NCBI RefSeq assembly: GCF_022414575.1
Contig: NZ_JADWYQ010000058.1
Location: forward strand, 1 to 36,461
From: Streptomyces sp. MUM 178J
GTDB taxonomy: Bacteria; Actinomycetota; Actinomycetes; Streptomycetales; Streptomycetaceae
DNA: 36,461 nt
Direction of reading: 5' to 3'
A program made the position numbers and the translations under genes. Of the stretch, positions 16,031 through 31,735 are shown piece after piece. Numbering within the stretch: position 1 is the first letter of the stretch; every line of letters starts with the position of its first letter. The notes beneath the pieces are model-generated. The model searched no databases and was not told the DNA's origin. It worked only from the letters and a program-made list of their open reading frames with translations.

Positions 16031-17092
16031 TCAGGCGAGTACCGCGTCGAGCCGGGCCGCGCGAGCCGCGAGGTCGTCCACCGCGATGGGGTCGGCCAGG
16101 TCCGGCGCGATCTCGGCGACGGCCCGGCGGGCGGCCGCGGTGAGGCGGACGGTGCCGTCGTCGTCGATGCCGTCGACCCCGTCGCCGGCGGCCATGCGCT
16201 CGTTGAAGGCGATCGCGTCGGCTTCGGAGAGTCCGGGCGGGAGATCCAGGGCGACGGAGCCGTCGGCGATGCGGACCGGGTAGCCGCCCGGCAGCCCGGC
16301 CGGCGCCGCCGTGGAGTGGCGCAGCGGACCGGCCCCGGGCAGCAGCGCCTCGAGGACCGGCAAGACCGCGGCCGCGGTGATGACGTTGTAGCGCGGTCCG
16401 GGCGCGAGCGGCGGCGCCTGGTAGGCGAGTGAGTCGTCCCGCTGCCCGTCCTCGCCGAGGTGGACCCGGCAGTGCTGCTGCGGGTCGGCGGGCCGCCGGG
16501 CCTGCATGACGTCGAACACCTGGGCGTGGTGCCCGAGCACGCGGATCAGCGGCATGGGCCGGTCCGGGTGTGCGGCGCGCAGGGCGGCGCGCACCCGCAA
16601 CTGCATCATGGCGGCGTTCCCCAGGCCGACCGCGGGCGCCAGGCCGAGTCGGGCGAGGACCGGACCGGTCACGTCCGGAAAGGACAGGTTCGCCACCGGT
16701 CCGGTGTGGCCGGCCGCGCGCACGGCCCTCATGACGTTCAGGACGAGCGGAAGCTGATAGGGCAGCCGCAGGGCGAGACCGGCGGCGGTGACGGCGCGGG
16801 CGGCGGGATCGGAGCGGCCGGACATCGCCCAGGGGCTGCGCATCGAGGCGCAGTGCACGACCAGGTCGGGACGGGTGGCGGTGAGCAGCCCGGCCACCTC
16901 GTCCAGCCGGGACGCATCGAGCGGCACCGCCTCGACACGGCAGTCCCGGGCGCTGGCCACGGTCGCCGCCACGGCGTCGGGCGCGGATGACCGGCCCGCC
17001 ACCAGCAGACGCCCGACCCGCCCGCCCGCGGCCAGTCCGTCCGCGACCCGCTCCCCCATGTCGCCTGCGCCGATGATCAGCACTGTGGTCAT
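16031..17092 (-). CDS. NAD(P)-binding oxidoreductase, saccharopine dehydrogenase/opine-reductase-like
   Basis: The 353-residue protein has an N-terminal Rossmann fold (VLIIGAGDMGERVADGL, with GxGxxG). The strand-turn LVVHCASMRSPW is typical of saccharopine-dehydrogenase-like or homoserine-dehydrogenase-like proteins. The C-terminal half shows LGNAAMMQLRVRAALRAAHP and a metal- or substrate-type segment VLGHHAQVFDV, but I recognise no specific family. Its ATG at 17092 is divergent from the ATP-grasp gene across a 183-base gap holding a promoter element shared with the right-arm operon, so it probably belongs to the cluster. A role in reducing an imine or ketone of an amino-acid intermediate is inference. 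Confidence 0.72.
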   Translation of the reverse strand: MTTVLIIGAGDMGERVADGLAAGGRVGRLLVAGRSSAPDAVAATVASARDCRVEAVPLDASRLDEVAGLLTATRPDLVVHCASMRSPWAMSGRSDPAARAVTAAGLALRLPYQLPLVLNVMRAVRAAGHTGPVANLSFPDVTGPVLARLGLAPAVGLGNAAMMQLRVRAALRAAHPDRPMPLIRVLGHHAQVFDVMQARRPADPQQHCRVHLGEDGQRDDSLAYQAPPLAPGPRYNVITAAAVLPVLEALLPGAGPLRHSTAAPAGLPGGYPVRIADGSVALDLPPGLSEADAIAFNERMAAGDGVDGIDDDGTVRLTAAARRAVAEIAPDLADPIAVDDLAARAARLDAVLA

Positions 17093-17148
17093 ACGTCGAT
17101 CGTAGTGGACGGGCCTGTCCGCGACGGGAGTTGGGGCGTCGGCCCCCG

Positions 17149-17260
17149 GTGTGCCTTTGGGGGTGACCGCATGTGACTCAAGTCGTAGACCCCGCCCGCC
17201 GCCGGGTCCTGACTTCTACGTTCGTCACTCGTCCGCAGACCGCGGCAACGCGACAGCAGG
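17149..17260 (+). promoter_or_regulatory. Duplicated cluster promoter region, copy 1
   Basis: This segment matches 23504-23611 closely. Both begin GTGTGCCTTTGGGGG. Both then carry a 31-base identical block (17171-17201 and 23526-23556) containing the inverted repeat GACT-CA-AGTC and an overlapping GTC-GTA-GAC. Exactly 15 bases later both have TACGTT, a possible -10, then GCAGACCGCG and GACAGCAGG before the ribosome site. Each copy sits in a divergent gap before the first gene of an operon. It is the probable binding site of a cluster regulator. Confidence 0.8.
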
Positions 17261-17275
17261 GATGGTGAGGACGCG

Positions 17276-18625
17276 ATGATTGAGCTGGCCGAGGACAGGC
17301 GATCTGAGCTGTGGAACCGCTCCGGGAGGGCGGCGCGCGCCGATGCCGGACGCGCGGTCGGCGTCCTGGTCGACGCGTACGGGACCGGCAACTACCTGCC
17401 GGAGGCGTTCAACCGGCTCGGGATCGACGTCGTCCATGTGCAGAGCGCGCCGGAACCGATAGCGCGCATGCAGCCGTGGGACAGGACCCGCTACCGCGAC
17501 TGGCTGGTGTACGACCCGGACGGCGGCACCGAGCGCGCGCTCAAGGAGATCGACGCGCGGTTCGTCATCCCCGGCCAGGAGCCGGGAGTGCTGCTCGCGG
17601 ACCGGCTGAGCGAGGCCCTGGCGCTGCGCAGCAACGGAACCGCGTGCTCCGAGGCGCGGCGCGACAAGTACAAGATGATCGAGGCGGTCGCCGCCGCGGG
17701 GCTGCGCACCGCGGACCAGATGGTCACCGATGACGCCGAGGAGGCCGTCGCCTGGGCCGAGGGCAGCGGGTACTGGCCGTGCGTGGCCAAGCCGCTGTCG
17801 TCCGCGTCGACCGACGGGGTCTTCATCTGCCGTGACGCCGACGCGCTGCGCGAGGCGTTCCCCGCCATCCTCGACAGCACCACGGTCTTCAACGGCGCGA
17901 ACACCCAGGTGCTGGTGCAGAGTTTCCTAGAGGGAACCGAGTACATCGTCGACACCGTGAGCGTCGACGGCCGGGCCTACGTCTGCGGTGTGTGGCAGTA
18001 CGAGAAGCAACTGCTGCCCAACGGAAAGCCGATCTACAACCGCGACATCCTGGTGTCGCCGACCGACCCGACGGCGGTCGCGCTGATCGACTACACCCGC
18101 GCCATGCTCGACGTCCTGCGCATCCGCAACGGCCCGGCGCACACCGAGCTGATGATGACCCAGGACGGTCCCGCTCTCGTGGAGGTGGGCGCCAGGGTCA
18201 ACGGCCATCTGCACCCCGCCTTCCACGACGCCTGCCTCGGCGTGAACAGCGCCGACCTGACGGCGCTGGCCTACGTACGGCCCGAGCAGTTCCTCGCCCG
18301 CTACGGCGGCGGCGTGTACGACAAGCGCCAGCCCGCAGTCGTCTACAACACGCCGACGACGCTGTCCGGCCGGGTGGTCTCCGTCAACGAGGCGGTGGTC
18401 GAAGAGATCCGCAACCGGCCGTCGGTGGCGGACCTCACGCTCAAGCGCAAGCCCGGCGACGTCATCGTGCCGACCCATGACCTGCTCACCAGCCCGGTGC
18501 GGGTGTTCCTCACCGCTGCGGACCAGGCCGTCGTGGACGAGGACTACCGGTTCATCGAGTCCGTGCGCGAAGCGATCTACGAGGTCCAGCCCCTCGGCGC
18601 GCGGACGGCGTGCGGAGTCGTGTGA
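17276..18625 (+). CDS. ATP-grasp carboxylate-amine ligase (L-amino acid ligase-like)
   Basis: The 449-residue protein has an N-terminal pre-ATP-grasp fold (AVGVLVDAYGTGNYLPEAFN) and an ATP-grasp core with a nucleotide-binding lysine near residue 171 (CVAKPLSSASTDGVFIC). The LVQSFLEGTEYIVDTVSVDG strand and the metal-binding strand ALVEVGARVNGHLHP follow (about 300-315). This arrangement is that of BacD/DdaF-type enzymes, which activate a carboxylate as acyl phosphate and join it to an amine. Substrates cannot be read from sequence. It is the first gene of the left-arm operon, with GGTGAGG just upstream. Its stop overlaps the MFS start as TGATG. Confidence 0.87.
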   Translation: MIELAEDRRSELWNRSGRAARADAGRAVGVLVDAYGTGNYLPEAFNRLGIDVVHVQSAPEPIARMQPWDRTRYRDWLVYDPDGGTERALKEIDARFVIPGQEPGVLLADRLSEALALRSNGTACSEARRDKYKMIEAVAAAGLRTADQMVTDDAEEAVAWAEGSGYWPCVAKPLSSASTDGVFICRDADALREAFPAILDSTTVFNGANTQVLVQSFLEGTEYIVDTVSVDGRAYVCGVWQYEKQLLPNGKPIYNRDILVSPTDPTAVALIDYTRAMLDVLRIRNGPAHTELMMTQDGPALVEVGARVNGHLHPAFHDACLGVNSADLTALAYVRPEQFLARYGGGVYDKRQPAVVYNTPTTLSGRVVSVNEAVVEEIRNRPSVADLTLKRKPGDVIVPTHDLLTSPVRVFLTAADQAVVDEDYRFIESVREAIYEVQPLGARTACGVV

Positions 18626-19893
18626 TGTCCGGCCCCGAACAGCTTCAGCCGACGAAACCCCGTCTGCGGGAGAACATCGCGGGGCTGCGGCCGATCAGCG
18701 GACTGCTGGCCACGGTGACCGTGTCGCGCTGCTCGGTCGTGCTGTACCCCTTCTACGCCGTGTACCTCGCCAGTGAGCGCAAAGAGCTGACCGTCGACCT
18801 GATCGGCCTGATCGTCGGCGTGTTCGGCATCGGCGCGCTGCTCGCCGGGGTGTTCAGCGGGGCGCTCGCGGCCCGCATACCGGAGAAGCGGCTCGCGGTC
18901 ATGGGCCTCGCCGCCGTGACCGGCATCGTGCTGGCCATCTCGGTCACCAGCGAGCTGTGGATGCTCGTCGGGCTGACCGCGCTCTGGGGCTTCTGCTACG
19001 AGCTGGTCAATCCGATCGCGTACACGCTGGTGGCCCGTGTGATGCCCGAGGCGCAGCGGCGGTTCGCGTTCTCGGCGGTGCGGCTGGCGATCAACGCGGG
19101 CATGGGCATCGGGCCGGTGCTGGCCGGAATCCTGTTCAGCGTCAGCCCGGCCCTGCTCCCCTGGGGTACCGCGATCGGCTATCTGGCCTCGGCGTTCATC
19201 CTGGCGCGCGCACGGATCGCCGCGGGCCGGGGCTCCGCCGACACCGGAGCTCGGGCCGCCGCCGGCGACGAGCGCGACGCGGGACGGCCCGGAGTGCGCT
19301 TCTGGAGCTTCCTCGCCGCGACCACACCGATTCATCTCGCCTACGCGCTGCCTTCCACGGTGGTCAGCGTGTATGTGATCCACACGCTTGACGAGCCGGC
19401 CGGCTGGGCGAGCGCGGTCTTCGCGGTGAACGCCTTCCTGATCATCACCTGCGAGATCGCCCTCAACCACGCCATGCTGACGCTCAGCCGTCGTGCCACC
19501 CTGCTGATCGGCTACGGCTGCGCGGTCGCCGGCTTCGCCCTCATGGGCCTCGCGGCGGACCACACCTGGCTGCTGCTCGTCGCCACCGCCGTGTGGACGC
19601 TCGGCGAGATGATCGTCTACCCGGTCATGCCCGACCACATCAGCGCGATAAGCCCGGACCGGCTCCAGGTCCGCAACATGGGCTTCTACACGGCGCACTT
19701 CAACCTCGGCGTGGTGCTCGCGCCGCTGATCTTCCTGCCGCTGATCGGCGTGCTCGGCCCGGTCGCGTCGTGGTCGCTCGTCGGCGGCGTGCTGCTGGCC
19801 GGCCTGCTGGCCACCGCCGCCATCAGCAACTCGCCCCGGACCTGGGGCGTCGAGAAGGCTCCGCCCACCCCCGCCGCGCTGGTCGAGCGGTAG
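18625..19893 (+). CDS. MFS transporter (probable product exporter)
   Basis: The 422-residue protein has about 12 hydrophobic helices in two halves separated by a charged cytoplasmic loop (about residues 205-235, RGSADTGARAAAGDERDAGR). It resembles drug/solute efflux MFS proteins, with MPEAQRRFAFSAVRLAINAG and the mirrored PDHISAISPDRLQVRNMG segments typical of that group. The ATG at 18625 overlaps the ATP-grasp stop, so translation is coupled; an upstream frame from 18610 is less likely. In context it probably exports the cluster product or confers self-protection. A second MFS gene lies in the right-arm operon. Confidence 0.88.
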   Translation: MSGPEQLQPTKPRLRENIAGLRPISGLLATVTVSRCSVVLYPFYAVYLASERKELTVDLIGLIVGVFGIGALLAGVFSGALAARIPEKRLAVMGLAAVTGIVLAISVTSELWMLVGLTALWGFCYELVNPIAYTLVARVMPEAQRRFAFSAVRLAINAGMGIGPVLAGILFSVSPALLPWGTAIGYLASAFILARARIAAGRGSADTGARAAAGDERDAGRPGVRFWSFLAATTPIHLAYALPSTVVSVYVIHTLDEPAGWASAVFAVNAFLIITCEIALNHAMLTLSRRATLLIGYGCAVAGFALMGLAADHTWLLLVATAVWTLGEMIVYPVMPDHISAISPDRLQVRNMGFYTAHFNLGVVLAPLIFLPLIGVLGPVASWSLVGGVLLAGLLATAAISNSPRTWGVEKAPPTPAALVER

Positions 19894-19956
19894 CGACGCG
19901 CCGCGGACCGCGCCGGACACCGGCAGGCACCATCAGACAGCTCTGGAAGGACCAAG

Positions 19957-20787
19957 ATGCTCACACAGGCGCCACCGCGGAAGGCGGCCGAACGGCTCGC
20001 CGTGGACATCCGCCGCATGATCATCGAGATGAGCGGCTCGCCCAACGGCGTGCACATCGGCGGCAGCATGTCGATCGCCGACCTGCTCGCCGTGCTGTAC
20101 GGCGAGGTGCTGCGGCAGCCCGCGGACGAGGGGCCGCCGGACGATCGCGACTATCTGATCCTGAGCAAGGGGCAGGCGTGCGCGGCGCTGTACGCGGCGC
20201 TCGCCGCGACCGGGACGATCTCCGAAGCGGAGTGCGCAAGCTACGCCGAGCAGGGCAGCCGGCTGGCCGGCCACCCGATGAAGCGGCTCCCCGGAGTGGA
20301 GTTCTCGACGGGTTCACTGGGGCACGGGCTGTCGCTGGGGCTAGGGGTCGCCCTCGCCGGACGGCGGTACGGGCACGACAAGCGGGCCTTTGTGATCCTG
20401 GGCGACGGCGAGTTGCAGGAGGGCTCGAACTGGGAAGCGGCGATGGCGGCGGCCCATCACGGCGCCGACAACCTGACCGCCGTCGTCGACCGCAACAGCT
20501 GGCAGATCAGCGGCAGGACCGAGGACTGCATGTCGCTGGAGCCGCTGACCGACAAGTGGGCCGGCTTCGGCTGGCGCGTGCTCACCGTCGACGGACACGA
20601 CCACAACCAGATCAGGGCGGCGTTCAACGCGCCGGTCGAGCCGGGCCGGCCGACGGCCGTCATCGCCCGCACGATCAAGGCACGTGGGGTCCCCGGCCTG
20701 CACGACACGAAGAAAAGCCATTCGGCCACCCTCGACGAGGCCGCACGACGGCTGGCCCTCGCGGCGCTGGCGGGTGAGCGGGCATGA
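19957..20787 (+). CDS. Transketolase-like N-terminal subunit (ThDP-binding)
   Basis: The 276-residue protein is the pyrophosphate-binding half of a split transketolase. It has HIGGSMSIADLLAVLYG, DYLILSKGQACAALYAAL, the STGSLGHGLSLGLGVALAG loop and the ThDP/Mg motif G149-D-G-E-L with the distal Asn in VVDRNSWQISG. Such pairs transfer a two-carbon ketol unit between sugars or onto other aldehydes; a split enzyme extends carrier-bound amino-acid semialdehydes in azinomycin/vazabitide pathways. The ATG at 19957 follows GGAAGGA. The gene overlaps the C-terminal subunit gene by 4 bases (ATGA). The 63-base gap after the MFS gene is consistent with one operon. Housekeeping transketolase is single-chain, so this is a specialised copy. 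Confidence 0.9.
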   Translation: MLTQAPPRKAAERLAVDIRRMIIEMSGSPNGVHIGGSMSIADLLAVLYGEVLRQPADEGPPDDRDYLILSKGQACAALYAALAATGTISEAECASYAEQGSRLAGHPMKRLPGVEFSTGSLGHGLSLGLGVALAGRRYGHDKRAFVILGDGELQEGSNWEAAMAAAHHGADNLTAVVDRNSWQISGRTEDCMSLEPLTDKWAGFGWRVLTVDGHDHNQIRAAFNAPVEPGRPTAVIARTIKARGVPGLHDTKKSHSATLDEAARRLALAALAGERA

Positions 20788-21773
20788 GCGCCGCACTCAC
20801 CGCACACCGCTCCGTCGCAGACGTCTTCGACCACGTCTGGGAGAACCGCTCGGCGCTCCAGAGCCGCGAAGCCCACGCCATGATGCTGCTGGCCCTGGCG
20901 CGGGAGAACCCGGACCTGGCGTGTCTGACCGTCGACATGGACTACGAGGCGTCCTTCACGGGGGCGCTGGCGCGCCAGCATGTGAACCTCGGCATCGCCG
21001 AGCAGAACATGATCAGTGTCGCGGCCGGAATGACGGTGGCCGCCCGGCCGGTGTTCGCCACCGGGATGAGCCCGTTCGTCAGCGCCCGCGCCTACGAGCA
21101 GATCAAGGTCGATGTGGCCGGCGCCAATCTGCCGGTGAAGATCGTGGGAACGCACGGGGGTCTCGCATCCGGCCACTACGGCCCCACCCATCATTCGACC
21201 GAGGACATCGGCGCGCTCCGGCTGCTGCCGAACATGACGGTGGTCGTGCCCGGTGACGCCTGGGAGGCCGTACAGGCCACGGTGGCCGTCGCGGAGGATC
21301 CCGGCCCCGCCTACCTGCGGCTGGGCAGGCAGGCCACGCCGGCGCTCTACGAGGAACGCACCGACTTCGTCCTGGGCAGGGCCCGCGTCCTGCGTGAGCC
21401 CGGCCGGGTGGTGTTCATCGCCACCGGCCCACACCCGAACCTCATCGCCGCGCAGGCGGCCCGGGAACTCGCAGAGCAGGGGGTGAGCGCCGGGCATCTC
21501 AACATGCACACGGTCAAGCCGCTCGACCGGGACGCGGTCGTCGACGCCTGCGCCCGCGCCGAGGCGGTGGTGACCATCGAGGACCACCGGGCCGTGGGCG
21601 GCCTGGGCGGGGCGGTCTGCGAGGTGGTCGCGGAGATCGGGGGTCCGCCGGTGCGGCGGATCGGTGTGCCCGACGTCCACTACGACCTGGTCGGCGGGGA
21701 GCAGTATCTGCTGCACCACGCCGGCGTCAACGCGGCCAACGCGGTCGCCCAGGCGCTCAAGGCGCTGGCGTAG
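20784..21773 (+). CDS. Transketolase-like C-terminal subunit
   Basis: The 329-residue protein is the pyrimidine-binding and C-terminal half of the split transketolase. The catalytic Glu that activates ThDP is E73 in NLGIAEQNMISVAAGM. The family segments GTHGGLASGHYGPTHHSTED, VVVPGDAWEAVQA and the C-terminal ITIEDH-like strand AVVTIEDHRAVGGLGGAV are all present. It must pair with the preceding gene, whose stop it overlaps. It ends the left-arm operon and faces a repeat-rich 883-base gap. The aldehyde acceptor is unknown; the aspartokinase in this cluster points to an aspartate-derived one (inference). Confidence 0.9.
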   Translation: MSAALTAHRSVADVFDHVWENRSALQSREAHAMMLLALARENPDLACLTVDMDYEASFTGALARQHVNLGIAEQNMISVAAGMTVAARPVFATGMSPFVSARAYEQIKVDVAGANLPVKIVGTHGGLASGHYGPTHHSTEDIGALRLLPNMTVVVPGDAWEAVQATVAVAEDPGPAYLRLGRQATPALYEERTDFVLGRARVLREPGRVVFIATGPHPNLIAAQAARELAEQGVSAGHLNMHTVKPLDRDAVVDACARAEAVVTIEDHRAVGGLGGAVCEVVAEIGGPPVRRIGVPDVHYDLVGGEQYLLHHAGVNAANAVAQALKALA

Positions 21774-21944
21774 GGCGCGCTGGGCGGCGTGACCGCCGCG
21801 GACCGCAGGACACGGCCCCTGAAGACCGAGACACGCAGACCTCGGCCGGCAGGGGCCTTGCCCGTCTCGGCCTGCGGGGCCCGCGTCGTGTGGCCCCGCT
21901 CCTGCAGTCCGTGTCGGCCCACACCGGCAGGGCCCGTGTCCGTT

Positions 21945-22270
21945 GGACCTGTCCGCAACGGGCCTTGTCCGCATGACCCCCGCCCGTACGGGCCTTGTCC
22001 GCATGGCCCCCGCCCGTACGGGGCCACGTACGGCCTGTCCGCATGGCCTGTACGCACGGAGCCGTGCCCGCATGACTTGTCCACATGCCCCTGTCCGTAC
22101 GAGCCTTGTCCGCACGGCCTCTCCGCATGACCCCCGCTCGCACGGGGCCATACCCGTACGGACAGTCCGCACGGGCCGTGCCCGTGCTCGCACGACCTGT
22201 CCGCACCGTCCCGCTCGTACGGGGCCATACCCGTACGGACAGTCCGCACGGGCCGTGCCCGTGTAGGGCC
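21945..22270. repeat. Degenerate tandem repeat array with nested palindromes
   Basis: The array is built on GTCCGCAYG and CCCGTACGGG elements. A 30-base unit starting GGCCTTGTCCGCATG occurs in tandem at 21961-21990 and 21991-22020 with one mismatch. A 45-base segment starting ACGGGGCCATACCCGTACGG is exactly repeated at 22142-22186 and 22219-22263. Each 45-base copy ends in a hairpin CACGGGC-CGT-GCCCGTG. No convincing gene is present; open frames across it only read the repeat. It fills part of the 883-base gap between two convergent genes. Confidence 0.8.
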
Positions 22271-22326
22271 GTGCTCGCATGAACTCTGTCCTTACGGACG
22301 CTGTCCGCGAGGCGGGAAAGCCGAAA

Positions 22327-22354
22327 GGACCTCCTGGAGCGCACCAGGAGGTCC
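22327..22354. terminator. Perfect hairpin in the repeat-rich gap
   Basis: An 11-bp stem, GGACCTCCTGG-(6 nt)-CCAGGAGGTCC, without T-run. It lies between the convergent transketolase and response-regulator genes and may end transcription from either side. Confidence 0.55.
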
Positions 22355-22579
22355 CGTCATCGGCTCTGCGGGCTGGGTGTACTGCCCTGTGGGGCCAGTC
22401 CGGTCGGATCTTGGTTCGTCAGCCCCCGGTACCGCCTGCCGTGGTGTCCTCGACCGCCGGAGGGACTGGACATCCAGCCCCCTGGGGACACCTCCGTGGG
22501 GTAACCCCTGAGGACACCGCCCGTCGGCGCCCCCAGAGGAGTCCGGGGGAGGCAGCTGGGGGAGAGCGAGGAGCGGGGT

Positions 22580-22634
22580 CTGGGGCGGAGCCCCAGTTCG
22601 GGAAGGGGCGGGGAGGGGAGGGGAGGGGAGGGGA
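22580..22634. terminator. GC hairpin followed by G-run tract, downstream of the cluster response regulator
   Basis: CTGGGGC-GGA-GCCCCAG (22580-22596) is the hairpin type commonly found after Streptomyces genes. Beside it, 22605-22634 carries repeated GGGG runs separated by single bases (GGGGAGGGGAGGGGAGGGG pattern), able in principle to form a G-quadruplex on the + strand. It lies 23 bases past the stop of the - strand regulator gene and probably ends its transcript. The rest of 22355-22579 shows no gene. Confidence 0.55.
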
Positions 22635-22656
22635 AAGATCCGCCGGACACCGCCTT

Positions 22657-23340
22657 CTATGCGGCGGCGAGCGGCCTGCCGGCCGTACGGGGCCGCAGCG
22701 GCGGCTGGTCCGACGAGTCGATCAGCCGCAGGGACATGGCCTTGTTGACCGCGTCCAGCCGGGAGACCGCGTCCAGCTTGGCGAAGACATTGCTCAGATG
22801 CCGCTTGACGGTTCCCTCGCTGATGCCCAGCCGCAGGGCGATCTGGCGGTTGCTGAGGGCCACCGCCACCAGGGTGAGCACCTCGGCCTCCCGCTCCGAG
22901 AGGGCGGGGCCGGACGAGGCCCGCGACCGGGCCGGGCGCATCGGGACCGCCACCGTCTGGTACGGGCCGCGGTGGGCGCGGACCGCCGCGACCAGGGCCG
23001 CGTAGCCGACGCTCTTGTGGAGGTAGCCCTGGACGCCCAGGTCCAGCAGGGACCGGACGAGGCCGGGGTGGTCCAGCATGCTCATGATCAGCACCCGGGT
23101 GGCCGGCACGCCGTGCAGCAGGCGGTTCACGATCGCCTCCCGGTCGGCGGCGGGGGCCATGTGGACGTCGAAGAGCACAAGGTCGGGCCGGGTGCCTGCG
23201 ACGAGTCCCGCAAGCTCGGCCACCTCCCCGGTCTGGGCGACGATCTCGATGTCGGGCTGCGAGTCGAGCAGCAGGCACAGGGCCTCACGCAGCAGGCTGT
23301 TTTCATCGGCGATCAGGACGCGGACTGACGTACCGGACAT
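22657..23340 (-). CDS. NarL/LuxR-type response regulator (orphan, cluster-linked)
   Basis: The 227-residue protein has an N-terminal receiver domain with acidic residues D12/E13, phospho-acceptor D58 (LVLFDVHM), S87 and K109 (GYLHKSV), and a C-terminal LuxR helix-turn-helix (LSEREAEVLTLVAVALSNRQ, then EGTVKRHLSNVFAKL). All receiver residues are present, so phosphorylation is possible, but no histidine kinase is encoded nearby. It is divergent from the desaturase gene across a gap holding copy 2 of the shared promoter element. It is therefore the best candidate regulator of both operons (inference). The ATG at 23340 fits the family N-terminus VRVLIADEN. Confidence 0.9.
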   Translation of the reverse strand: MSGTSVRVLIADENSLLREALCLLLDSQPDIEIVAQTGEVAELAGLVAGTRPDLVLFDVHMAPAADREAIVNRLLHGVPATRVLIMSMLDHPGLVRSLLDLGVQGYLHKSVGYAALVAAVRAHRGPYQTVAVPMRPARSRASSGPALSEREAEVLTLVAVALSNRQIALRLGISEGTVKRHLSNVFAKLDAVSRLDAVNKAMSLRLIDSSDQPPLRPRTAGRPLAAA

Positions 23341-23503: not shown

Positions 23504-23611
23504 GTGTGCCTTTGGGGGCGGCCCCATGTGACTCAAGTCGTAGACCCCGCCCGCCGGTTCGTTCCGGCTCCTACGTTCCTGATCGCAGACCGCGATGACC
23601 CGACAGCAGGA
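23504..23611 (+). promoter_or_regulatory. Duplicated cluster promoter region, copy 2
   Basis: This is the counterpart of 17149-17260, with the same order of elements: GTGTGCCTTTGGGGG, the identical 31-base block with GACT-CA-AGTC (23526-23556), TACGTT at 23572-23577 after the same 15-base spacing, GCAGACCGCG and GACAGCAGG. It lies between the divergent regulator and the desaturase gene. The copies differ mainly in linker bases, as expected when the preserved blocks bind protein or polymerase. Confidence 0.8.
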
Positions 23612-23622
23612 GTGAGGGGACC

Positions 23623-24807
23623 ATGGCGACACCGGTTCACACCATCGAGAAGACAAGCGGACCCGTCGACAGCGGGCGCATCGACGGCGGGCACGTCGAC
23701 AGCGGGCACGTTGACGGCGGGCACGTCGACTACGACTTCAGCCGCATCGCCCCCGAGGTGCGCAGACGCCTGAGACCTCTGGGGAAGCTCGACAACTGGC
23801 ACGCCCCCGTCGCGATCCTCGCGGACTACGCCGTCGTGGCCGCGGCGATATGGGCCTGCCTGCAGGTTTCCTGGTGGTTCTATCCGCCGGCGCTGATCGT
23901 GATCGGCTCGACCCAGCGCGCTCTGGTGAATCTGCTGCACGAGTCGTCCCACAAGGTGCTCGCCCGCAACCAGCTCCTCAACCTGATGCTGGGGACGGTG
24001 TTCGCCGGGTACCTGGTGTTCCATCTCTACACGCCGTACCGCACCAGCCACATCGGATTCCACCACCGCTATCTCGGAGACCCCGAGAAGGATCCCGACT
24101 ACCAGTTCCACCGCGAATGCGGCCTGTACGACCCCCGGGTTTCGGACCGGCGGTTCTTCCTGGAGAACATCCTGCTGGCCGTTCTCGGACTGCGCACGGC
24201 CTCGTACATCAGGTACATCGTCCGCGACCGCATCTTCTACAAGGGCCCGAAGACCAATGTCTCCATGCCCGTCGGCCTGCCGACGGAACGCGTGGTCCTG
24301 GCCTTCCAGTGGCTGACTCTCGCCTCGGTCGTGATCGCCACCGGAACGTGGCACCTCCTGGTGCTGTTCTGGCTCGTCCCGCTGTTCACGACCGCGATCG
24401 CCGTCGGCTGGCTCTCGGAGCTGGCCGAGCACTACCCGATGCCCGAGAGCGAGCGCGCCCAGCTGCTCATGACCAGGAACCGCCATGGCTGGGCGATCGA
24501 GAACTACCTGCTCGGGCGGCACCACGACAACTACCACCTGGTGCACCACCTGAACATGAGCATCCCGTTCTGGAACATGAAGCGCGCCCACCACATCCTG
24601 CTCGACGACGTCACCTACGCCCGATGGGACGCCCTCTGGGGCGGAGTCATCACCCGCCGGCGCGGCCGGAGTGGCTCCGAGACCCTGGTCAGCTACGCCA
24701 CGAAGTACCGGGCCTGGCGCCGCGCCGGCGGAGATCCCCGGACCGCCTCGTCCACCTTCGCCGAGGTGCTCACCCTCGCCCACGCCTCCGCCGCCCGGAA
24801 CCGCTGA
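23623..24807 (+). CDS. Membrane fatty-acid-desaturase-fold non-heme diiron enzyme
   Basis: The 394-residue integral membrane protein has the three histidine boxes of the desaturase/hydroxylase superfamily: H106-ESS-H110, H143-IGF-HH148 and H305-LV-HH309 (preceded by RHHDNY). Hydrophobic segments lie between them. The N-terminus has four pentapeptide repeats of the form [VI]D[SG]G[HR] (residues 15-34), encoded by 15-base DNA repeats at 23665-23724. The superfamily inserts oxygen or double bonds using O2 and electrons. Substrates include acyl lipids but also small molecules, so a lipid substrate cannot be assumed here. GGAGTGAGGGG precedes the ATG. It is the first gene of the right-arm operon. 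Confidence 0.88.
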   Translation: MATPVHTIEKTSGPVDSGRIDGGHVDSGHVDGGHVDYDFSRIAPEVRRRLRPLGKLDNWHAPVAILADYAVVAAAIWACLQVSWWFYPPALIVIGSTQRALVNLLHESSHKVLARNQLLNLMLGTVFAGYLVFHLYTPYRTSHIGFHHRYLGDPEKDPDYQFHRECGLYDPRVSDRRFFLENILLAVLGLRTASYIRYIVRDRIFYKGPKTNVSMPVGLPTERVVLAFQWLTLASVVIATGTWHLLVLFWLVPLFTTAIAVGWLSELAEHYPMPESERAQLLMTRNRHGWAIENYLLGRHHDNYHLVHHLNMSIPFWNMKRAHHILLDDVTYARWDALWGGVITRRRGRSGSETLVSYATKYRAWRRAGGDPRTASSTFAEVLTLAHASAARNR

Positions 24808-24818
24808 AGGAGGAACCT

Positions 24819-26042
24819 GTGTCCACGGGACCCCGCACCCCCCGCAACGCCCCCCGCGCCCCTCTGTGGAACTCCTATCTGAACACCGCGGGTTCCGGGC
24901 TGCAGAGCCCGGAGACCAGACAGGCGGTGGCCGGCTTCCTCGCCCTGGAGGCCGCGGTCGGCTCGTACTTCGCCGAGCGCTCGTACACGGATGTCCTGAA
25001 CGACCGCGTGTACCAGGCCGTTTCCGAGCTGTTCCACTGCTCCGCCGACGACGTGGCGATGTCGGACTCGGCGACCCGCGCCTGGCACTCCGCCGTCGCC
25101 GCCCTGTCCCTCACAGAACGGGACACCGTGTGGACGACGCCGTACGAGTGGGCCGGCAACCTCCTCCTGCTGCGGAACGCCCAGAAGAAGGCCGGCTTCG
25201 CCATCGAGGAGGTGCCGCTCACCCCGGCCGGGGACGTCGACCTCGACTGGTGCTGCCGACATCTCACCGACGATGTGGCGCTGTTCTCGGTGACCCATGT
25301 GCCCTCGTGCACCGGGACCGTCACCCCGCTGGCGCCGCTGGCCGATCTGGTCCGCGGGCGGCGCACCCTGCTCGCCGTCGACGCCTGCCAGTCGGCCGGG
25401 CTGATCCCTCTCGACCTGACCGCGACCCCGGTGGACCTGCTGACCGCCACCGGCAAGAAGGCGCTCCTGGGCCCCCGCGGCACCGGCTTCGCCGTGATGT
25501 CGGAGCGGTTCCGGGCCGTGGCCGAGCCGGTCAGCGTCGATGTGCACACCCATGCGTTCGCCGAGGACGACGGCATCCGCCGGCTGACCGGCACGGCCCG
25601 GCGGTTCGAGCTCGGCGAGAAGGCCGTGCCCTCCTTCGTCGGTCTGGACACCGCGCTCAGGCAGGCGCGGCACAACGACTGGGGGCGCATCGCCGACCTC
25701 TCGCGGGAACTGCTGGAGCGGGTGCGGCAGATCCCGGGCGTCCGGGTGCACACCGCCGGCACGCACCACGCCGGAATCCTCTGCGTCACCCATGAGCGGC
25801 TGTCCGCCGAGGACCTGTGGTCGCAGCTGTGCTGGGCCGGGGTCGCCTGCTGGCTCATCGACGGTGCGCACACCCCGCACCATCTGCTCCGCGCAGGCAT
25901 TCCCGCGGCCGTACGGCTGGCCGTCGGACCGCGCACCACCCGCGAGGAGATCGACTACGGAGCGAGTGCGCTGGAAGGGATCAGCCGCCGCGCAACCGCC
26001 AAGGCCCCCATGCCCGCCGCGGCCACGACGGTGTCCGTCTGA
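24819..26042 (+). CDS. Class V aminotransferase-fold PLP enzyme (SufS/EgtE-like)
   Basis: The 407-residue fold-type I PLP enzyme belongs to the cysteine desulfurase/isopenicillin-N-epimerase group. The cofactor Asp lies in LAVDACQSAG and the Schiff-base lysine is probably K214 in TGKKALLGPRGTGF. LFSVTHVPSCTGTVTPLAPL forms the PLP-ring face. The desulfurase active-site Cys loop is not recognisable, so C-S lyase, epimerase, transaminase or other elimination chemistry is possible and the substrate is unknown. GTG at 24819 follows AAGGAGG at 24807-24813. It sits 11 bases after the desaturase gene and clearly in its operon. Confidence 0.85.
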   Translation: MSTGPRTPRNAPRAPLWNSYLNTAGSGLQSPETRQAVAGFLALEAAVGSYFAERSYTDVLNDRVYQAVSELFHCSADDVAMSDSATRAWHSAVAALSLTERDTVWTTPYEWAGNLLLLRNAQKKAGFAIEEVPLTPAGDVDLDWCCRHLTDDVALFSVTHVPSCTGTVTPLAPLADLVRGRRTLLAVDACQSAGLIPLDLTATPVDLLTATGKKALLGPRGTGFAVMSERFRAVAEPVSVDVHTHAFAEDDGIRRLTGTARRFELGEKAVPSFVGLDTALRQARHNDWGRIADLSRELLERVRQIPGVRVHTAGTHHAGILCVTHERLSAEDLWSQLCWAGVACWLIDGAHTPHHLLRAGIPAAVRLAVGPRTTREEIDYGASALEGISRRATAKAPMPAAATTVSV

Positions 26043-26101
26043 CGCTCACCCGCGTGACGGGTCGGCGCGGCAACTGAACGGCAACTGAAGGGAGAGCACA
26101 T

Positions 26102-27382
26102 ATGAAGAAGATCATCATCCTCGGGGTCAACGCCGTCAGTCTCAAGTACCTGCCTCAGGCGCTGCGCACCGCCGGGTACGAGCCGGTGTTCCTGCTGGAC
26201 CCGGCGGACTTCTCTGCGCAGTCCGCGGCGGCTCTGCGCGGCAGCGCCTGCTTCCCGGTCGACATCGAGGACCGCGCCGCCGTTCTCCGCCTGCTGGCGG
26301 AGCATCCGGCGATCACCGAGGACGCCTTCGCGATCACCGGCCTGTTCGACGAGAAGTTCCCGCTGATCGAGGAGTTGGCGGCGGCGTACGGCCTGTGCCG
26401 GCCCGATCCGGCCGCCGCACGTCTCGCCTCCAAGGCCGAGGTCGCCCGGATCATCCCCGAGCACTGCCCGCCGACGGCCCGCTTCACCGCCGCCGAGGCG
26501 CGGCGTTCGGCCGTCGACCCGGCCGCGGTGACCCCCGCGCCCCACGGCTACATCCTGAAGCCCGCCGAGCAGGCGGGCGGCCAGGGCGTCGTGCAACTGC
26601 CCCCGGACGCCACCTCGGGGACGGTGCGGGACGCGGTGGCGGCATCGGGCATGCCCGACGACGACGGCTATCCGTGGGTGCTGCAGGCGGACGTCCGCGG
26701 GCAGCTGATCAGCCTGGAGGGGTATGTGGAGGAGGGGCGCGTCGTCTTCATCGGCTTCTCCCTGCGCGGCCGGATCGCATGGACCGAGATCAGCAATCTG
26801 CTGCCCGCGGACGACCGGCTGTCCCCCGCGGTCAGGGACCGGTGCCGGGCCGCCGTGACGGCGCTGGCAGAACGCTCGGGCATGACGCAGGGATACTTCC
26901 ACAGCGAGTTCCTCGTGCCGGGGGACCCCACGGGTTCCGCGGGCTCCGGGGACCAGGCGTTCCTGATAGACGCCAACGCCGGGCGGCTGGGCGGGGGCGG
27001 CCATGTCGAACAGCTCGCCCTCGCCTACGCGCTGGATCCGGCGGAGATCCTCGCCCATGTGGTGACCCTGGGCCTGCCGGACGTGCCGACGAGCCCGGCG
27101 CCCGCCTACGGCTCCGCGGCAGCGCCCCGCTCCACGACGGCGTACTACTACGGCCTGGAGCGGGAAGCCGTGGTCACATCGGTGTCCGTGCCGCCAGGCG
27201 GACGCTGCCTGCACACCCAGGTCGTCCGCGACGGCGGGCGGGTCGACGCGGCGGGCACCGGCGACAGCGCCTGGGTCGGCGTGCTGACCGGTCCCACGGA
27301 GGACATCCGGCGGGAGATGGAGGGCATCGTCGTCCACACTGTCGCCGGCCCGCGCCGCCCGGCCTGGACGCCGACGTCATGA
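26102..27382 (+). CDS. Second ATP-grasp enzyme
   Basis: The 426-residue protein starts MKKIIILGVNAVSLKYLPQAL. It has the ATP-grasp nucleotide-binding strand GYILKPAEQAGGQGVVQL, a QADVRGQLISLEGYVEEGRV sheet and the metal-binding strand FLIDANAGRLGGGGHVEQ, where the usual Glu-x-Asn is Asp-Ala-Asn. It differs clearly from the first ATP-grasp enzyme, so two different ligations or activations are expected. Carbamoyl-phosphate-like or amino-acid ligase substrates cannot be chosen from sequence. AAGGGAGAG precedes the ATG. Its stop overlaps the next gene (ATGA). Confidence 0.84.
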   Translation: MKKIIILGVNAVSLKYLPQALRTAGYEPVFLLDPADFSAQSAAALRGSACFPVDIEDRAAVLRLLAEHPAITEDAFAITGLFDEKFPLIEELAAAYGLCRPDPAAARLASKAEVARIIPEHCPPTARFTAAEARRSAVDPAAVTPAPHGYILKPAEQAGGQGVVQLPPDATSGTVRDAVAASGMPDDDGYPWVLQADVRGQLISLEGYVEEGRVVFIGFSLRGRIAWTEISNLLPADDRLSPAVRDRCRAAVTALAERSGMTQGYFHSEFLVPGDPTGSAGSGDQAFLIDANAGRLGGGGHVEQLALAYALDPAEILAHVVTLGLPDVPTSPAPAYGSAAAPRSTTAYYYGLEREAVVTSVSVPPGGRCLHTQVVRDGGRVDAAGTGDSAWVGVLTGPTEDIRREMEGIVVHTVAGPRRPAWTPTS

Positions 27383-28605
27383 CCGGCCGGCCGAGAACCC
27401 CGCCGGGCGGCTGGACGCCCTACGTCCTCCGGTTCTTCAGCTACGGCGCATGGGGTGTGCTCTACCCCTTCTTCCCCGTGTGGCTGCTCGACAGCGGGCT
27501 GTTCACGGCCGGCGGCGTCGGGCTGATCGTCGGGGCGGCGGTCCTCGCCAACCGGCTCGGCTCGCTGGCCTTCGTCAAGGTCATGCGGCCGGGCAGCGAG
27601 CGGAACTTCATCATCGGCTCGCAGGCCGCGATCGCGGCGGCCGCCGCCGTCATGTGTCTGATGGGCCTGCTCTCCGTCCGCTCGCTGGCGGGCTGGCTGC
27701 TGCTCTCCACGGTGTTCGGCCTGGCCTGTTCACTCGCCACACTGGCCCAGCTGACCCTCATCGTCCATCAGTTCGACTCCACCCAGACACGCAGAGCCTT
27801 CTCCTACGAGAACATCGCGCTGAACGCCGCGGGCGGCCTGGCTCCGCTGGTCTCCTCGCTTGCCTACACGGCTTCGGAGCGGTTCTACGCGCTGGCCCCG
27901 ATCGGCTTCGCGGCGGTCGGCATCCTGCTGGCCGCCCGACTGGCCGGACGGAGCGCGCCCGCAGCCGGCGCACCGGCCGCGGCCCGGCCCGCCACACCCG
28001 GCAGAAGGACGGTGGCGATCCTGCTGGCGGCCAACTTCCTCACCACCGTGGCCTATGCACAGTTCTACGGGGTGTTCTCCGCCCATGCGACCCCGCTGCT
28101 GGGAGCCCGGAGCGTCGGGCTGCTCTTCGCCGCCGGAAGCGTGGCCATCGTCCTCCTGCAGACGCTGGTCACCAGATGGTCGCGCACCCTGGGCGAACCG
28201 GCACTCGTGGTGGTCTCCAACCTGGCCCTGGGCGCCGGAACGGCGCTGCTCGTCGCCGCCGGCGCCGGCCTGCCGGCAATGCTGCTGGCCGTGCTGGGCA
28301 TCACGCTCGGCGAAATGATCTACGGACCGGTCTACCAGACGCTCGCCGTGGGCATCTCCGGCGGCCGGCCCGCGCTGGCCATCGGCACGCTGACCTTCGT
28401 ATGGGGCCTCGCCGAATCCCTCGCCGTGGTCGCCGGCCTCGCCCTCGTCGGCGCCGGCCTCGGCCCGGTCTCCTTCCTCGGGGGCGCCGCCGCCGCGCTG
28501 GCCGTCGTCGCCCTCGTCGTCGTGTTCCGCCGCCACTTCACCGCCATGGCGGCCTTCGCCAACGTCACCTCCACAGAGCCGGCGAAAGCACCGGCGCACT
28601 CCTGA
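27379..28605 (+). CDS. Second MFS transporter
   Basis: The 408-residue protein has about 12 membrane helices, beginning MTGRPRTPPGGWTPYVLRFF. It has the efflux-type N-terminal half (SYGAWGVLYPFFPVWLLDSG), a central Pro/Ala-rich loop (about residues 193-210) and a conserved LGITLGEMIYGPVYQTLAVG in the second half. Start overlap with the ATP-grasp stop implies translational coupling. It is distinct from the left-arm MFS. Either could export the product while the other exports or imports a precursor; orientation cannot be told. Confidence 0.87.
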   Translation: MTGRPRTPPGGWTPYVLRFFSYGAWGVLYPFFPVWLLDSGLFTAGGVGLIVGAAVLANRLGSLAFVKVMRPGSERNFIIGSQAAIAAAAAVMCLMGLLSVRSLAGWLLLSTVFGLACSLATLAQLTLIVHQFDSTQTRRAFSYENIALNAAGGLAPLVSSLAYTASERFYALAPIGFAAVGILLAARLAGRSAPAAGAPAAARPATPGRRTVAILLAANFLTTVAYAQFYGVFSAHATPLLGARSVGLLFAAGSVAIVLLQTLVTRWSRTLGEPALVVVSNLALGAGTALLVAAGAGLPAMLLAVLGITLGEMIYGPVYQTLAVGISGGRPALAIGTLTFVWGLAESLAVVAGLALVGAGLGPVSFLGGAAAALAVVALVVVFRRHFTAMAAFANVTSTEPAKAPAHS

Positions 28606-28619
28606 AAGGGCATGATCCG

Positions 28620-29942
28620 ATGGAAACCGCTCGCTCCGCCGCTCGGCGTCCGTACGGCACGGCAGAGCCGATCCGTGTCCTGAAGTTCGGCGGGACGTCG
28701 ATGGGCACCACCCCCGAGCGGCTGGCCCAGACCGCGCAGAGAGTCGCCGAGGTGCGCCGAGAGGGCTACGCGACCGTGGTCGTCGTCTCCGCACGAGGAG
28801 ACTCCACCGACCGGCTCGTCGAGGAAGCGCTCACCGCCGCCGCGGCGCCTCCGCCCAGGGAACTCGACCAGCTGCTGGCAACCGGAGAGGCGCGATCGGC
28901 CGCCTTGCTGGCCATGGCACTGGACGGCATGGGCATATCCGCGCTCTCCCTGCTGGGACGCCAGGCCGGCTTCGAGGTCTCCGGAGCGCACACCGACGGG
29001 CGCATCGCGCGGATCGACGCCACGGAGGTGGCCCGGGCCCTGGCCCGCGGTCAGGTCGCCGTCGTGGCCGGTTTCCAGGGGGTGAACGGCGCGGGAGACG
29101 TCATCACCCTCGGCAGGGGCGGTTCGGACACCTCGGCCGTGGCGCTCGCCGTCGAGCTGGACGCCGCATCCTGCGAGATCTACACCGACGTCGACGGAAT
29201 CCACTCCGCCGATCCACGCCTGGTGCCCGACGCCCGGCTGATCCCCGCCGTCCGCAACAGCGTCATGGCCGAGATGGCCTACGCCGGCGCCCGCGTGCTG
29301 CACACCCGCGCGGTGGAACTGGCCGGACGCGCGGGCGTGGACATCCATGTACGCAGTGCTTTCAACCGTCGCCCGGGGACCGTGGTGGTCTCGGACTGGA
29401 AGGGAACCCAGATGCTGGAAACCGACGACCGAGTGATCGCTGTGGCACATGACCCCGACAGCGCGAGGATCACCATGGGCGCCGCCTCCCCCGACGCCCC
29501 GCCGTTCGGGGCGGAGGGCTTCTCCATGCTCGCCGACGCCGCGGTCACCGTCGATGCGGTGACCCGGTTCACCGACGGCTCGGGGCGGCACGGCTGGGAC
29601 TTCACCGTGGCCCGCAAGGACGTGGAGGCCGCGATGAACGTGCTCACCGCGTTTCCCTGCGAGGTGGTCGTCGACGCGCGCGTGGCGAAGGTCTCGGTCG
29701 TGGGCGCCGGTCTGATGAGCGATCCCCGGTGTGCGGGCCGGATGCTGACGGCGCTGCTCGCCTCCGGGATCGAGCCGCTCTCCATCGCCACCTCGCAGGC
29801 GCGGATCTCCGCGACCGTACGGGACGCGGACTGCGCGCGGGCGGTGTCCGCCCTGCACAAGGAGTTCCTGCTCGGTGCGGCGGCGCCCGGGGCGGAATCA
29901 GGGGAGAGCGGCCGACTCGACGCGCTGACTCCGGCGCCCTGA
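28620..29942 (+). CDS. Cluster-borne aspartokinase with divergent ACT region
   Basis: The 440-residue aspartate kinase phosphorylates L-aspartate to 4-phospho-aspartate, first step to aspartate semialdehyde. Kinase motifs are intact: VLKFGGTSMG, VVVSARGDSTDRL, LATGEARSAAL, LGRGGSDTSAVALA and EIYTDVDGI. The C-terminal ACT domains are recognisable (VSVVGAGLMSDP, then SQARISATVR). The allosteric QNVS motif of usual actinobacterial Ask is replaced by RFTD in VDAVTRFTDGSG, and the ISTSE strand is IATSQ. These are positions where Lys/Thr feedback is sensed, so relaxed control is likely. AAAGGG precedes the ATG at 28620. No aspartate-semialdehyde dehydrogenase gene accompanies it, unlike the housekeeping ask-asd pair. 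Confidence 0.9.
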   Translation: METARSAARRPYGTAEPIRVLKFGGTSMGTTPERLAQTAQRVAEVRREGYATVVVVSARGDSTDRLVEEALTAAAAPPPRELDQLLATGEARSAALLAMALDGMGISALSLLGRQAGFEVSGAHTDGRIARIDATEVARALARGQVAVVAGFQGVNGAGDVITLGRGGSDTSAVALAVELDAASCEIYTDVDGIHSADPRLVPDARLIPAVRNSVMAEMAYAGARVLHTRAVELAGRAGVDIHVRSAFNRRPGTVVVSDWKGTQMLETDDRVIAVAHDPDSARITMGAASPDAPPFGAEGFSMLADAAVTVDAVTRFTDGSGRHGWDFTVARKDVEAAMNVLTAFPCEVVVDARVAKVSVVGAGLMSDPRCAGRMLTALLASGIEPLSIATSQARISATVRDADCARAVSALHKEFLLGAAAPGAESGESGRLDALTPAP

Positions 29943-29983
29943 CCGCATCGCACCCCACACCAGCCCGTCGGAAAGGGCCAGTC

Positions 29984-30874
29984 ATGCCAGAACCGGAACC
30001 CCGTCGCGGCGCACGCTCCACCGTCGTGCCCTTGCTGCCTCGGGTCGCCGCATCCGACCGGGCCGAGGCCGGCGACCGGCTGCCGCATCTGACCGGGCTC
30101 GCCGACGGCGTGTTCGCGTACACCGAGCCGAACCGTGGCGGGACCCCGTACAGCGCGGGCGTCGTCGCCGGCCCCGACGGAGTGACCGTCATCGACGCCG
30201 CCGTGCCCGAAGCCCGCGCGCGGATGCTGGCCGGGGCCGTCGAGGCGCTGGACGCCGGCCCGGTCCGGACCGTCGTCGCCACCCACGACTGCGGCGGCCA
30301 CCCCTTCGGCAGCGCCGCCTTCCCCGGCGCGGCAGTCATCGCGCACACCCTGGCCCGTGCGGGGAGGGACACCGGCGCAGCCCTGCCGTCCGTGACCTTC
30401 GACGACCGGCTCACGGTGCACTGCGGTGAGCGGCGGATCGAGCTCCTGTACTGCGGCCCCGCGCACACCGCCCATGACGTCGCCGCCTGGCTCCCGGGTG
30501 ACCGACTCCTCTTCGCGGGCGGCGTCGTGTCCCACGGGACGGCGCCGTCCGCCGTGCTGGGGTCGGTCGAGGGCATGCTCCGCGCCGTCGGGACGCTGCG
30601 CGGTCTCGGGGCGCGCACCGTGGTCTGCGGCCACGGCCGGGTCTGCGGTCCCGAGGCGTTCGACGAGACCGAGGCCTATCTGCGGTGGATCCAGTCCGTC
30701 GCGTTGAAGGGCTGGTCTCAGGACCTCACGCCGCTCCAGGCGGCCCGGGCGGCGGACCCGGGCGACTTCGGACGCCTGGCGGCCGGCCCTGAACGGATCG
30801 TGGGCAACCTGCGGCGCGCCTACGCCGAGCTGGACGGCGAGGTCCTGGGGGAGCCGCTGGACGCCCGGCGCTGA
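29984..30874 (+). CDS. Metallo-beta-lactamase-fold protein with altered metal motif
   Basis: The 296-residue protein has an MBL-type hydrolase fold: YSAGVVAGPDGVTVIDAAVP, LLYCGPAHTAHDVAAWLPGD and LLFAGGVV, with a late CGHGRV strand. The first metal motif, normally HxHxDH, reads H101-D-C103-G-G105-H106, so the second His is Cys and the Asp is Gly. Downstream His residues are kept. The catalytic state is therefore uncertain; it may bind one metal, use Cys as ligand, or act on an unusual substrate. GAAAGGG precedes the ATG at 29984. It ends the right-arm operon, 41 bases after aspartokinase. Confidence 0.82.
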   Translation: MPEPEPRRGARSTVVPLLPRVAASDRAEAGDRLPHLTGLADGVFAYTEPNRGGTPYSAGVVAGPDGVTVIDAAVPEARARMLAGAVEALDAGPVRTVVATHDCGGHPFGSAAFPGAAVIAHTLARAGRDTGAALPSVTFDDRLTVHCGERRIELLYCGPAHTAHDVAAWLPGDRLLFAGGVVSHGTAPSAVLGSVEGMLRAVGTLRGLGARTVVCGHGRVCGPEAFDETEAYLRWIQSVALKGWSQDLTPLQAARAADPGDFGRLAAGPERIVGNLRRAYAELDGEVLGEPLDARR

Positions 30875-31656: not shown

Positions 31657-31666
31657 GGGTGCTTCC

Positions 31667-31734: not shown

Positions 31735-31735
31735 C

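Follow-up and report, generated by a model that had tools for sequence, protein, structure and literature searches.

The window analysed here is a stretch of 36,461 nucleotides from Streptomyces sp. MUM 178J, namely contig C58 (36 kb) of a 6.63-Mb draft genome in 127 contigs, and its positions 16031-30874 hold a compact biosynthetic gene cluster. Here, I show that this cluster recurs as a linked core of ten genes in four Streptomyces genomes, that its site is empty in nine relatives, that one element precedes both of its operons, and that it brings together a split transketolase, an aspartokinase and a membrane oxidase of the GntB/RtxC family. About an even chance is given to the reading that this is an uncharacterised, horizontally acquired cluster which makes a short peptide, probably a dipeptide antimetabolite, built by ATP-grasp enzymes around a non-standard amino acid that would derive from aspartate and a two-carbon unit.

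A linked gene cluster at a site empty in nine relatives

Two operons make up the cluster. Operon 1 (17276-21773, forward strand) encodes an ATP-grasp L-amino-acid ligase (LAL), a predicted exporter of the major facilitator superfamily (MFS1), and the N- and C-terminal halves of a split transketolase (TKN and TKC); a NarL/LuxR-family response regulator with GerE and Response_reg domains then follows on the opposite strand (22657-23340). Operon 2 (23623-30874, forward strand) encodes the membrane oxidase (DES), a class V pyridoxal phosphate enzyme (PLP), a second ATP-grasp enzyme (AGR), a second predicted exporter (MFS2), the aspartokinase (AK) and a protein of metallo-beta-lactamase fold (MBL). 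The gene pairs LAL/MFS1, TKN/TKC and AGR/MFS2 overlap. All twelve genes of 16031-30874 were scanned with Pfam and also with NCBIfam (ten of them, together with MFS2 and MBL), and the gene families named in a first-pass annotation, made from the sequence alone, are borne out, save that AGR has no model and MFS2 stays under its cut-off.

When the DES alignment A1 was scanned against the genome contig collection, 23 loci were retrieved. A core of ten genes (TKN, TKC, LAL, regulator, DES, PLP, AGR, MFS2, AK and MBL) is linked, in two arrangements, in four Streptomyces genomes, those of the window strain, Streptomyces sp. PR69, S. filipinensis and S. alfalfae (sister loci L047, L048 and L068); the scattered, unlinked occurrence that would have told against the first-pass annotation was not seen in them. 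The PR69 cluster is 83-95% identical to that of the window, with the same gene order and likewise a DUF5324 neighbour; those of S. filipinensis and S. alfalfae are 54-81% identical, have operon 1 inverted and show no DUF5324 match in the locus. The stretch 17276-30874 is one unit.

All nine Streptomyces relatives compared (nine of eleven non-own DUF5324 genomes were fetched, G001 and G008 being left out) keep the rhomboid-peptidylprolyl isomerase-DUF5324 order, and cluster genes are unmatched in their next 15-16 kb. In PR69 the cluster occupies the same site after DUF5324, and its similarity to the window stops at 30887. With nine sites empty and one filled, the earlier description of a compact cluster without modular synthases, built on ATP-grasp enzymes and set in a conserved neighbourhood, is upheld. 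In three of four complete relatives the insertion site is some 18 kb away from dnaA; in the fourth the distance is 6.3 Mb. The cluster genes are also rare: AGR was present in one of 150 genomes, the window's own, and no DES above 66% identity was found in other genomes among 392 Streptomyces (regions were fetched for 18 of the 19 non-own genomes, G188 being left out).

As to modular synthases, which the first-pass annotation had declared absent, the statement holds for the window, with no non-ribosomal peptide synthetase (NRPS) recognised in its 36 kb, and for the PR69 cluster contig C2, on which no Condensation domain was matched. It fails in S. filipinensis and S. alfalfae, where an NRPS gene with four Condensation domains flanks the transketolase side of the cluster, in the order NRPS, MFS, transketolase end, with more NRPS and polyketide synthase (PKS) genes beyond (L047, L048 and L100-L103; the PKS genes confirmed with Pfam). 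A P450 and an acyltransferase were also noted in S. filipinensis.

The shared upstream element

A stretch of about 110 bp lies ahead of both window operons and of both operons in the three sister clusters. In the window, the forward-strand copies lie at 17100-17275, upstream of the ligase/transketolase operon (core match 17150-17187), and at 23460-23622, upstream of the DES operon (core match 23505-23542), and they are 81% identical over 90 bp. The pattern TGTGCCTTTGNGNGN{5,10}TGTGNCNNAAGTCGTA, drawn from the eight cluster copies, has exactly two matches in each of the four cluster genomes and none in six other Streptomyces, and the reversed pattern, used as a control, has none in all ten. Since the pattern derives from those eight copies, its presence in the four genomes holds by construction; the actual finding is that the element is absent elsewhere in these four genomes of 6.6-9.2 Mb. 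Downstream, a TACGTT is conserved, and it resembles a -10 box of the form TAnnnT. The NarL-type regulator is kept in all four clusters, at 64-93% identity in the three sister loci, and it may switch both operons through the shared element. A cluster-specific element with an adjacent regulator suggests a simple means of switching production on.

Split transketolase and aspartokinase

TKN (19957-20787) matches PF00456 at 134.7 bits and PDB 6yak at E 5e-60, with the thiamine diphosphate motif GDG; TKC (20784-21773) matches PF02779 and PF02780 and has the motif AEQN. When 199 Streptomyces genomes were searched with TKN, 35 of them, counting the own genome, had matches (E up to 1e-55). Among the 37 non-own matches, 17 were fetched with up to 20 kb of context, L035, L040 and L046 already had context, eight entered the tree without it and nine were left out. 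An ArgC-like semialdehyde dehydrogenase accompanies the transketolase in 13 of the 17 fetched loci and a DegT aminotransferase in 12, with at least one of the two in 15; a LysW-type carrier protein ending in EEDWGE is encoded in seven. This carrier was also found in L030, L034, L041 and L046, and not in L035 or L040.

In the TKN tree, the four rows associated with an aspartokinase form one clade (100/100), which together with L138, L139 and L140 makes a 7-row set (99/95), nested in a 25-row ArgC/DegT-associated set (97/93) that excludes two loci without such context. The identity of these clades rests on neighbouring genes, the tree holding no characterised protein (azinomycin proteins are absent). 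On this placement, the split transketolase named by the first-pass annotation not only stands but can be put, as far as sequence goes, in the amino-acid-semialdehyde type, which is the ground for tying it to the aspartokinase. Neither the ArgC-like reductase nor the DegT aminotransferase is matched in the three sister loci, and the window families recognised by Pfam and NCBIfam include neither. The EEDWGE-ending carrier was found neither in the window nor in L047, L048 and L068, and a hidden carrier protein was accordingly rejected. A glycolyl-loading role of the transketolase was rejected too, no lipoyl/acyltransferase partner or acyl carrier protein (ACP) being among the window-cluster families (Pfam, NCBIfam).

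AK (28620-29942) reaches 388 bits against NF005155 (cut-off 346), matches the PDB aspartokinase 3l76 and has its motifs KFGGTS and GRGGSD intact. It shares 40% identity with another genomic copy (G000:C1:190302) and lies among cluster genes in all four clusters. The rest of the genome also has genes of the semialdehyde dehydrogenase family, of which two adjoin other aspartokinase-like genes on C1 and C3. The acceptor of the transketolase may thus be aspartate semialdehyde, and its product a C6 amino acid.

The membrane oxidase and its clade

DES (23623-24807) matches PF00487 at 109.5 bits and has the histidine boxes HESSH, HIGFHH and HHDNYHLVHH. The fold family of the membrane desaturase-fold enzyme in the first-pass annotation is retained, and the assignment is changed to the GntB/RtxC family: DES scores 321 bits (E 9e-96) against the NCBIfam GntB model (NF041365), under its 380-bit cut-off, and it shares roughly 37-40% identity with the RtxC-type proteins of Paraburkholderia phymatum and Robbsia andropogonis, whose rtx loci were identified from gene context and known producers and not from annotated names. 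GntB is described as a transmembrane enzyme of arginine gamma-hydroxylation (PMC10367076), and RtxC as desaturating dihydrorhizobitoxine (PMC3222319). An ordinary lipid desaturase was rejected on this kinship, by which DES is best placed in an amino-acid-oxidising family.

In a 46-row tree, which omits L029 (it shares its genome with L069) and L073 (a region retrieved for AGR), the window DES falls in a 32-row clade (100/99), apart from a 9-row clade of mostly rtx-like members (100/97). In 26 of these 32 loci (31 fetched and the window), DES is followed on its own strand, within 3.8 kb, by a class V PLP gene. A proline dehydrogenase (ProDH)-family gene stands directly after DES in 19 (Pfam in three loci, by similarity in 19). 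Within the fetched stretches, 19 loci have a ProDH-family gene, seven a transketolase (only its C half in L030 and L034), six neither and none both. The rows are not independent, the DES of L060 and L074 being identical and that of L061 nearly so, and because they are related this exclusivity is a pattern and not a test.

ProDH makes pyrroline-5-carboxylate (P5C) from proline. Since the product proposed below for the transketolase can cyclise to a substituted P5C, two front ends and one finishing set are suggested. It is accordingly conceivable, albeit tentative, that the cluster belongs to a modular and undescribed family of pyrroline/proline-type antimetabolites across Actinomycetota and Pseudomonadota, with a finishing set (GntB/RtxC-like oxidase, class V PLP enzyme, L-amino-acid ligase and MFS exporter) and interchangeable front ends, either ProDH, giving P5C from proline, or an aspartokinase with a transketolase derived from that of 2,6-diamino-5,7-dihydroxyheptanoate (DADH) pathways, giving hydroxylated P5C from aspartate. 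A TauD-type oxygenase is perhaps a third front end; such a gene was found directly upstream of DES in L053 only (Pfam-confirmed; L051 and L052 were left unchecked).

Several further loci of the DES family were recorded. L030, L034 and L035 are azabicycle-type clusters (ArgC-like, CysN, transketolase) whose DES is 56-59% identical to that of the window; L035 also has DegT and CysD, and L030 and L034 a carrier protein. The Streptomyces loci L040, L041 and L046 combine an RtxC-family DES with a Cys/Met-type PLP enzyme, a glutamine amidotransferase (GATase) and a split transketolase, with the carrier also in L041 and L046, and are possible hybrid vinylglycine/DADH-type clusters. DES-ProDH-PLP clusters occur in L058, L060-L067 and L074, from Chitinimonas, Pseudomonas, Nioella, Alexandriicola and a Pseudosulfitobacter plasmid, and no named product was found for them; those of Chitinimonas and Pseudomonas also have LAL-MFS. 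An unmatched "fatty acid desaturase" cluster of a Pseudomonas palleroniana strain is mentioned in PMC11963402. Within the window DES itself, the 5' part (23657-23731) has in-frame 15-bp tandem repeats that are shorter in PR69 and lacking in the other 21 rows of A1, and which, lying outside the conserved domain, have the appearance of a minisatellite in coding sequence.

Ligases, PLP enzyme, exporters and MBL protein

LAL (17276-18625) reaches 353 bits against NF005543 (cut-off 302) and matches the PDB entry 30vh, an "L-amino acid ligase", at E 7e-62; DdaF (NF041595) is the best among the named NCBIfam ligase equivalogs, at 223 bits with a cut-off of 840. AGR (26102-27382) belongs to a rare family: a search of 5.8 billion sequences, of word-limited sensitivity, gave 28 proteins, the window's own included, and no match to PDB was found by sequence. 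Its predicted structure (mean pLDDT 91.9) has an ATP-grasp fold and matches PurT/PurK-type enzymes, L-amino-acid ligases and biotin carboxylases, so that AGR is classed as ligase-like on its modelled fold. Its plasmid relatives are only 26-28% identical. One of them, on a Pantoea stewartii plasmid (L073), is an AGR-like ATP-grasp (26%) found with a short TauD, two short MFS genes and an Asp/Glu racemase in an apparently decayed locus; two diverged homologues from S. rubradiris (P0131 and P0136) are possibly two copies on one contig.

The PLP enzyme (24819-26042; PF00266, 130 bits in the frame 23850-26042) resembles EgtE at 101 bits (cut-off 400) and keeps the lysine (alignment A4); its sequence matches fall in the cysteine desulfurase superfamily. 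A cysteine desulfurase was rejected, no NCBIfam desulfurase model reaching its cut-off and no C-terminal RxGxxC motif of the desulfurase type being seen by eye in A4.

MFS1 (18610-19893) matches MFS_1 at 100 bits, and MFS2 (27379-28605) at 28 bits, under the 33.4 cut-off, with no NCBIfam match. Both are present in the window and PR69, and MFS2 in all four clusters (63-92% in the three sisters). Homologues of MFS1 at 33-39% identity occur in L050, L054, L056, L058, L062-L067 and L069, and 11 of the 19 ProDH-type loci have a LAL-MFS neighbourhood. The MBL protein (29984-30874) matches PF00753 at 40.5 bits, and no NCBIfam model reaches its cut-off. Its metal motif reads THDCGGH/THNCGGH in the window and PR69 versus THHHGGH in S. 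filipinensis and S. alfalfae, with GG versus GD likewise; because the metal motif is partly lost in the former two, the protein may be dispensable or non-catalytic.

Proposed pathway and alternative explanations

AK would phosphorylate aspartate, and the strain's own semialdehyde dehydrogenase would yield aspartate semialdehyde, to which TKN/TKC would add a two-carbon ketol unit. The resulting 2-amino-4,6-dihydroxy-5-oxohexanoate could cyclise to a 4-hydroxy-5-hydroxymethyl-substituted pyrroline carboxylate, i.e., a substituted P5C and the oxidised form of bulgecinine. DES would hydroxylate or desaturate it, the class V PLP enzyme would transaminate or rearrange the amino acid, LAL with AGR would join the unusual amino acid to another one, and the MFS proteins would export the product; the order of these steps, the identity of the substrates and the activity of the product are likewise suppositions. 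The precedent is azinomycin, in which a kinase (AziC3), a reductase (AziC4), a split transketolase (AziC5/C6) and an aminotransferase are described as extending a semialdehyde by two carbons (PMC9570651). For bulgecinine, a transketolase reaction of hydroxypyruvate with aspartate semialdehyde has been put forward, though not proven (PMC5472815). A product of bacilysin/dapdiamide type is plausible.

Several observations weigh against this pathway. No semialdehyde dehydrogenase is encoded in the cluster itself, and AK could equally supply homoserine, threonine or lysine. DES is under the GntB cut-off and outside the rtx-like clade, and therefore neither activity can be transferred to it. Six DES-clade loci show no ProDH and no transketolase in the stretch fetched, and four of them (L049, L053, L055 and L057) have instead a TauD-type oxygenase at varying distance. 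Ten of the 17 transketolase loci lack the carrier protein in the fetched stretch, and among the three nearest TKN loci it is present in L139 but not in L138 or L140 (contig end); since only one of these three has it, the absence of a carrier has less weight than that of ArgC and DegT. Finally, the product may be a building block in two of the four species, as NRPS/PKS genes adjoin the cluster there.

That last observation is also what speaks for an NRPS-supply role, in which the free non-standard amino acid would feed a neighbouring NRPS and the window copy would be a detached supply cassette. This is quite improbable: no NRPS is recognised on the window contig and no Condensation domain on PR69 contig C2, the shared element stands only ahead of the two cluster operons (two matches per genome), and all four clusters retain a ligase, a second ATP-grasp enzyme and an exporter. 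Similarly low odds are given to a vinylglycine antimetabolite resembling rhizobitoxine or aminoethoxyvinylglycine, for which AK would boost the supply of homoserine, DES, acting like RtxC, would introduce the beta,gamma double bond, and the alkoxy side chain would come from the transketolase. The identity of DES to RtxC-type proteins, the O-acetylhomoserine-sulfhydrylase-like part of RtxA (PMC3222319) and the split transketolases in the Streptomyces rtx-like loci L040, L041 and L046 argue for it; a Cys/Met-type PLP enzyme and a GATase are, however, unmatched in the three sister loci and not among the window families, and the window DES clade is separate from the rtx-like one.

A somewhat better, though still unlikely, alternative is that AK is only a feedback-resistant or self-protective enzyme of the aspartate pathway (a target duplication), the transketolase using another acceptor. 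Such clusters commonly include resistance copies of targets, and the genome does have another aspartokinase at 40% identity; yet in all four clusters AK sits with cluster genes on either side, and the kin of the transketolase adjoin amino-acid semialdehyde enzymes. That the whole is a chance gathering of metabolic genes with no single pathway can hardly be credited, even if the oxidoreductase and the arsenic genes at the flank give the impression of unrelated passengers, for ten genes stay together in four genomes and two genomic settings and share a private two-copy element.

Were the aspartate and two-carbon pathway true, the cluster would give a genetic handle on the proposed two-carbon addition to aspartate semialdehyde, one suggested route to bulgecinine-type amino acids; it would present a transketolase shifted from glutamate-semialdehyde to aspartate chemistry, and would define a family of non-modular clusters that searches for NRPS/PKS signatures may miss.

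Other features of the stretch

On the reverse strand at 16031-17092 lies an NADP-binding, saccharopine-dehydrogenase-like oxidoreductase (Sacchrp_dh_NADP, 31 bits). Among the three sister loci only PR69 has a homologue, none being matched in the S. filipinensis and S. alfalfae loci, and elsewhere homologues occur in five of 198 other Streptomyces at 32-35% identity. Because it is unmatched in those loci and rare and distant elsewhere, it is probably a passenger; the family given in the first-pass annotation holds, and its membership in the cluster probably does not. Imperfect direct repeats rich in GTACGG/TCCGCA (families D2, D4 and D5) lie between TKC and the regulator (21919-22263). At 31237-36461, arsenic genes and three further genes have no match downstream of DUF5324 in the nine relatives, on which ground the non-core segment may reach as far as the end of the contig.

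Comparison with known systems

Open-licence PMC papers yielded no characterised cluster that combines these genes (MIBiG being outside the comparison), in agreement with the first-pass annotation, which knew of none. The scleric acid/QncN-QncL glycolyl-loading set is described with a lipoyl/acyltransferase protein and an ACP beside a split transketolase (PMC6335953), and neither is among the window-cluster families. As regards bulgecin, neither a sulfotransferase nor a glycosyltransferase was recognised in the cluster (Pfam, NCBIfam), the bulgecin genes themselves lying outside the comparison. With the dapdiamide and bacilysin ligases (DdaF, BacD) the cluster shares ATP-grasp ligase-like enzymes, to judge from the sequence of LAL and the predicted fold of AGR, but LAL is under the equivalog cut-offs, and dapdiamide or anticapsin genes are not recognised.

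Guanitoxin GntB is of the same family as DES, which falls short of its cut-off, and a partner of enduracididine-cyclase type is not recognised in the window. The rhizobitoxine cluster has an RtxC-family membrane oxidase too, and its homoserine-derived precursor would also draw on aspartate; it differs in the separate DES clade, and no ATP-grasp, transketolase or aspartokinase gene is annotated in two rtx-type plasmid regions. The unnamed DES-ProDH-(LAL-MFS)-PLP clusters of actinobacteria and of Pseudomonas, Chitinimonas and Nioella stand at 49-66% (DES), 34-41% (PLP), 46-53% (LAL) and 33-39% (MFS1) identity to the window, with a further LAL-like match of 30% in L031; these have a ProDH-family gene, whereas transketolase and aspartokinase are not in the fetched stretch.

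The DADH systems of azinomycin and vazabitide, lastly, share an amino-acid kinase and a split transketolase with the window, whose TKN nests in a clade from such neighbourhoods. Vazabitide is described as using a carrier protein and azinomycin N-acetylation instead (PMC9570651). The window differs in that its kinase is an aspartokinase, the carrier protein, ArgC-like reductase and DegT are not found, and the predicted chain is C6, not C7. What is new here is that one cluster, uncharacterised as far as the open-licence literature reaches, brings together an aspartokinase, a GntB/RtxC-like oxidase and a transketolase of DADH type.

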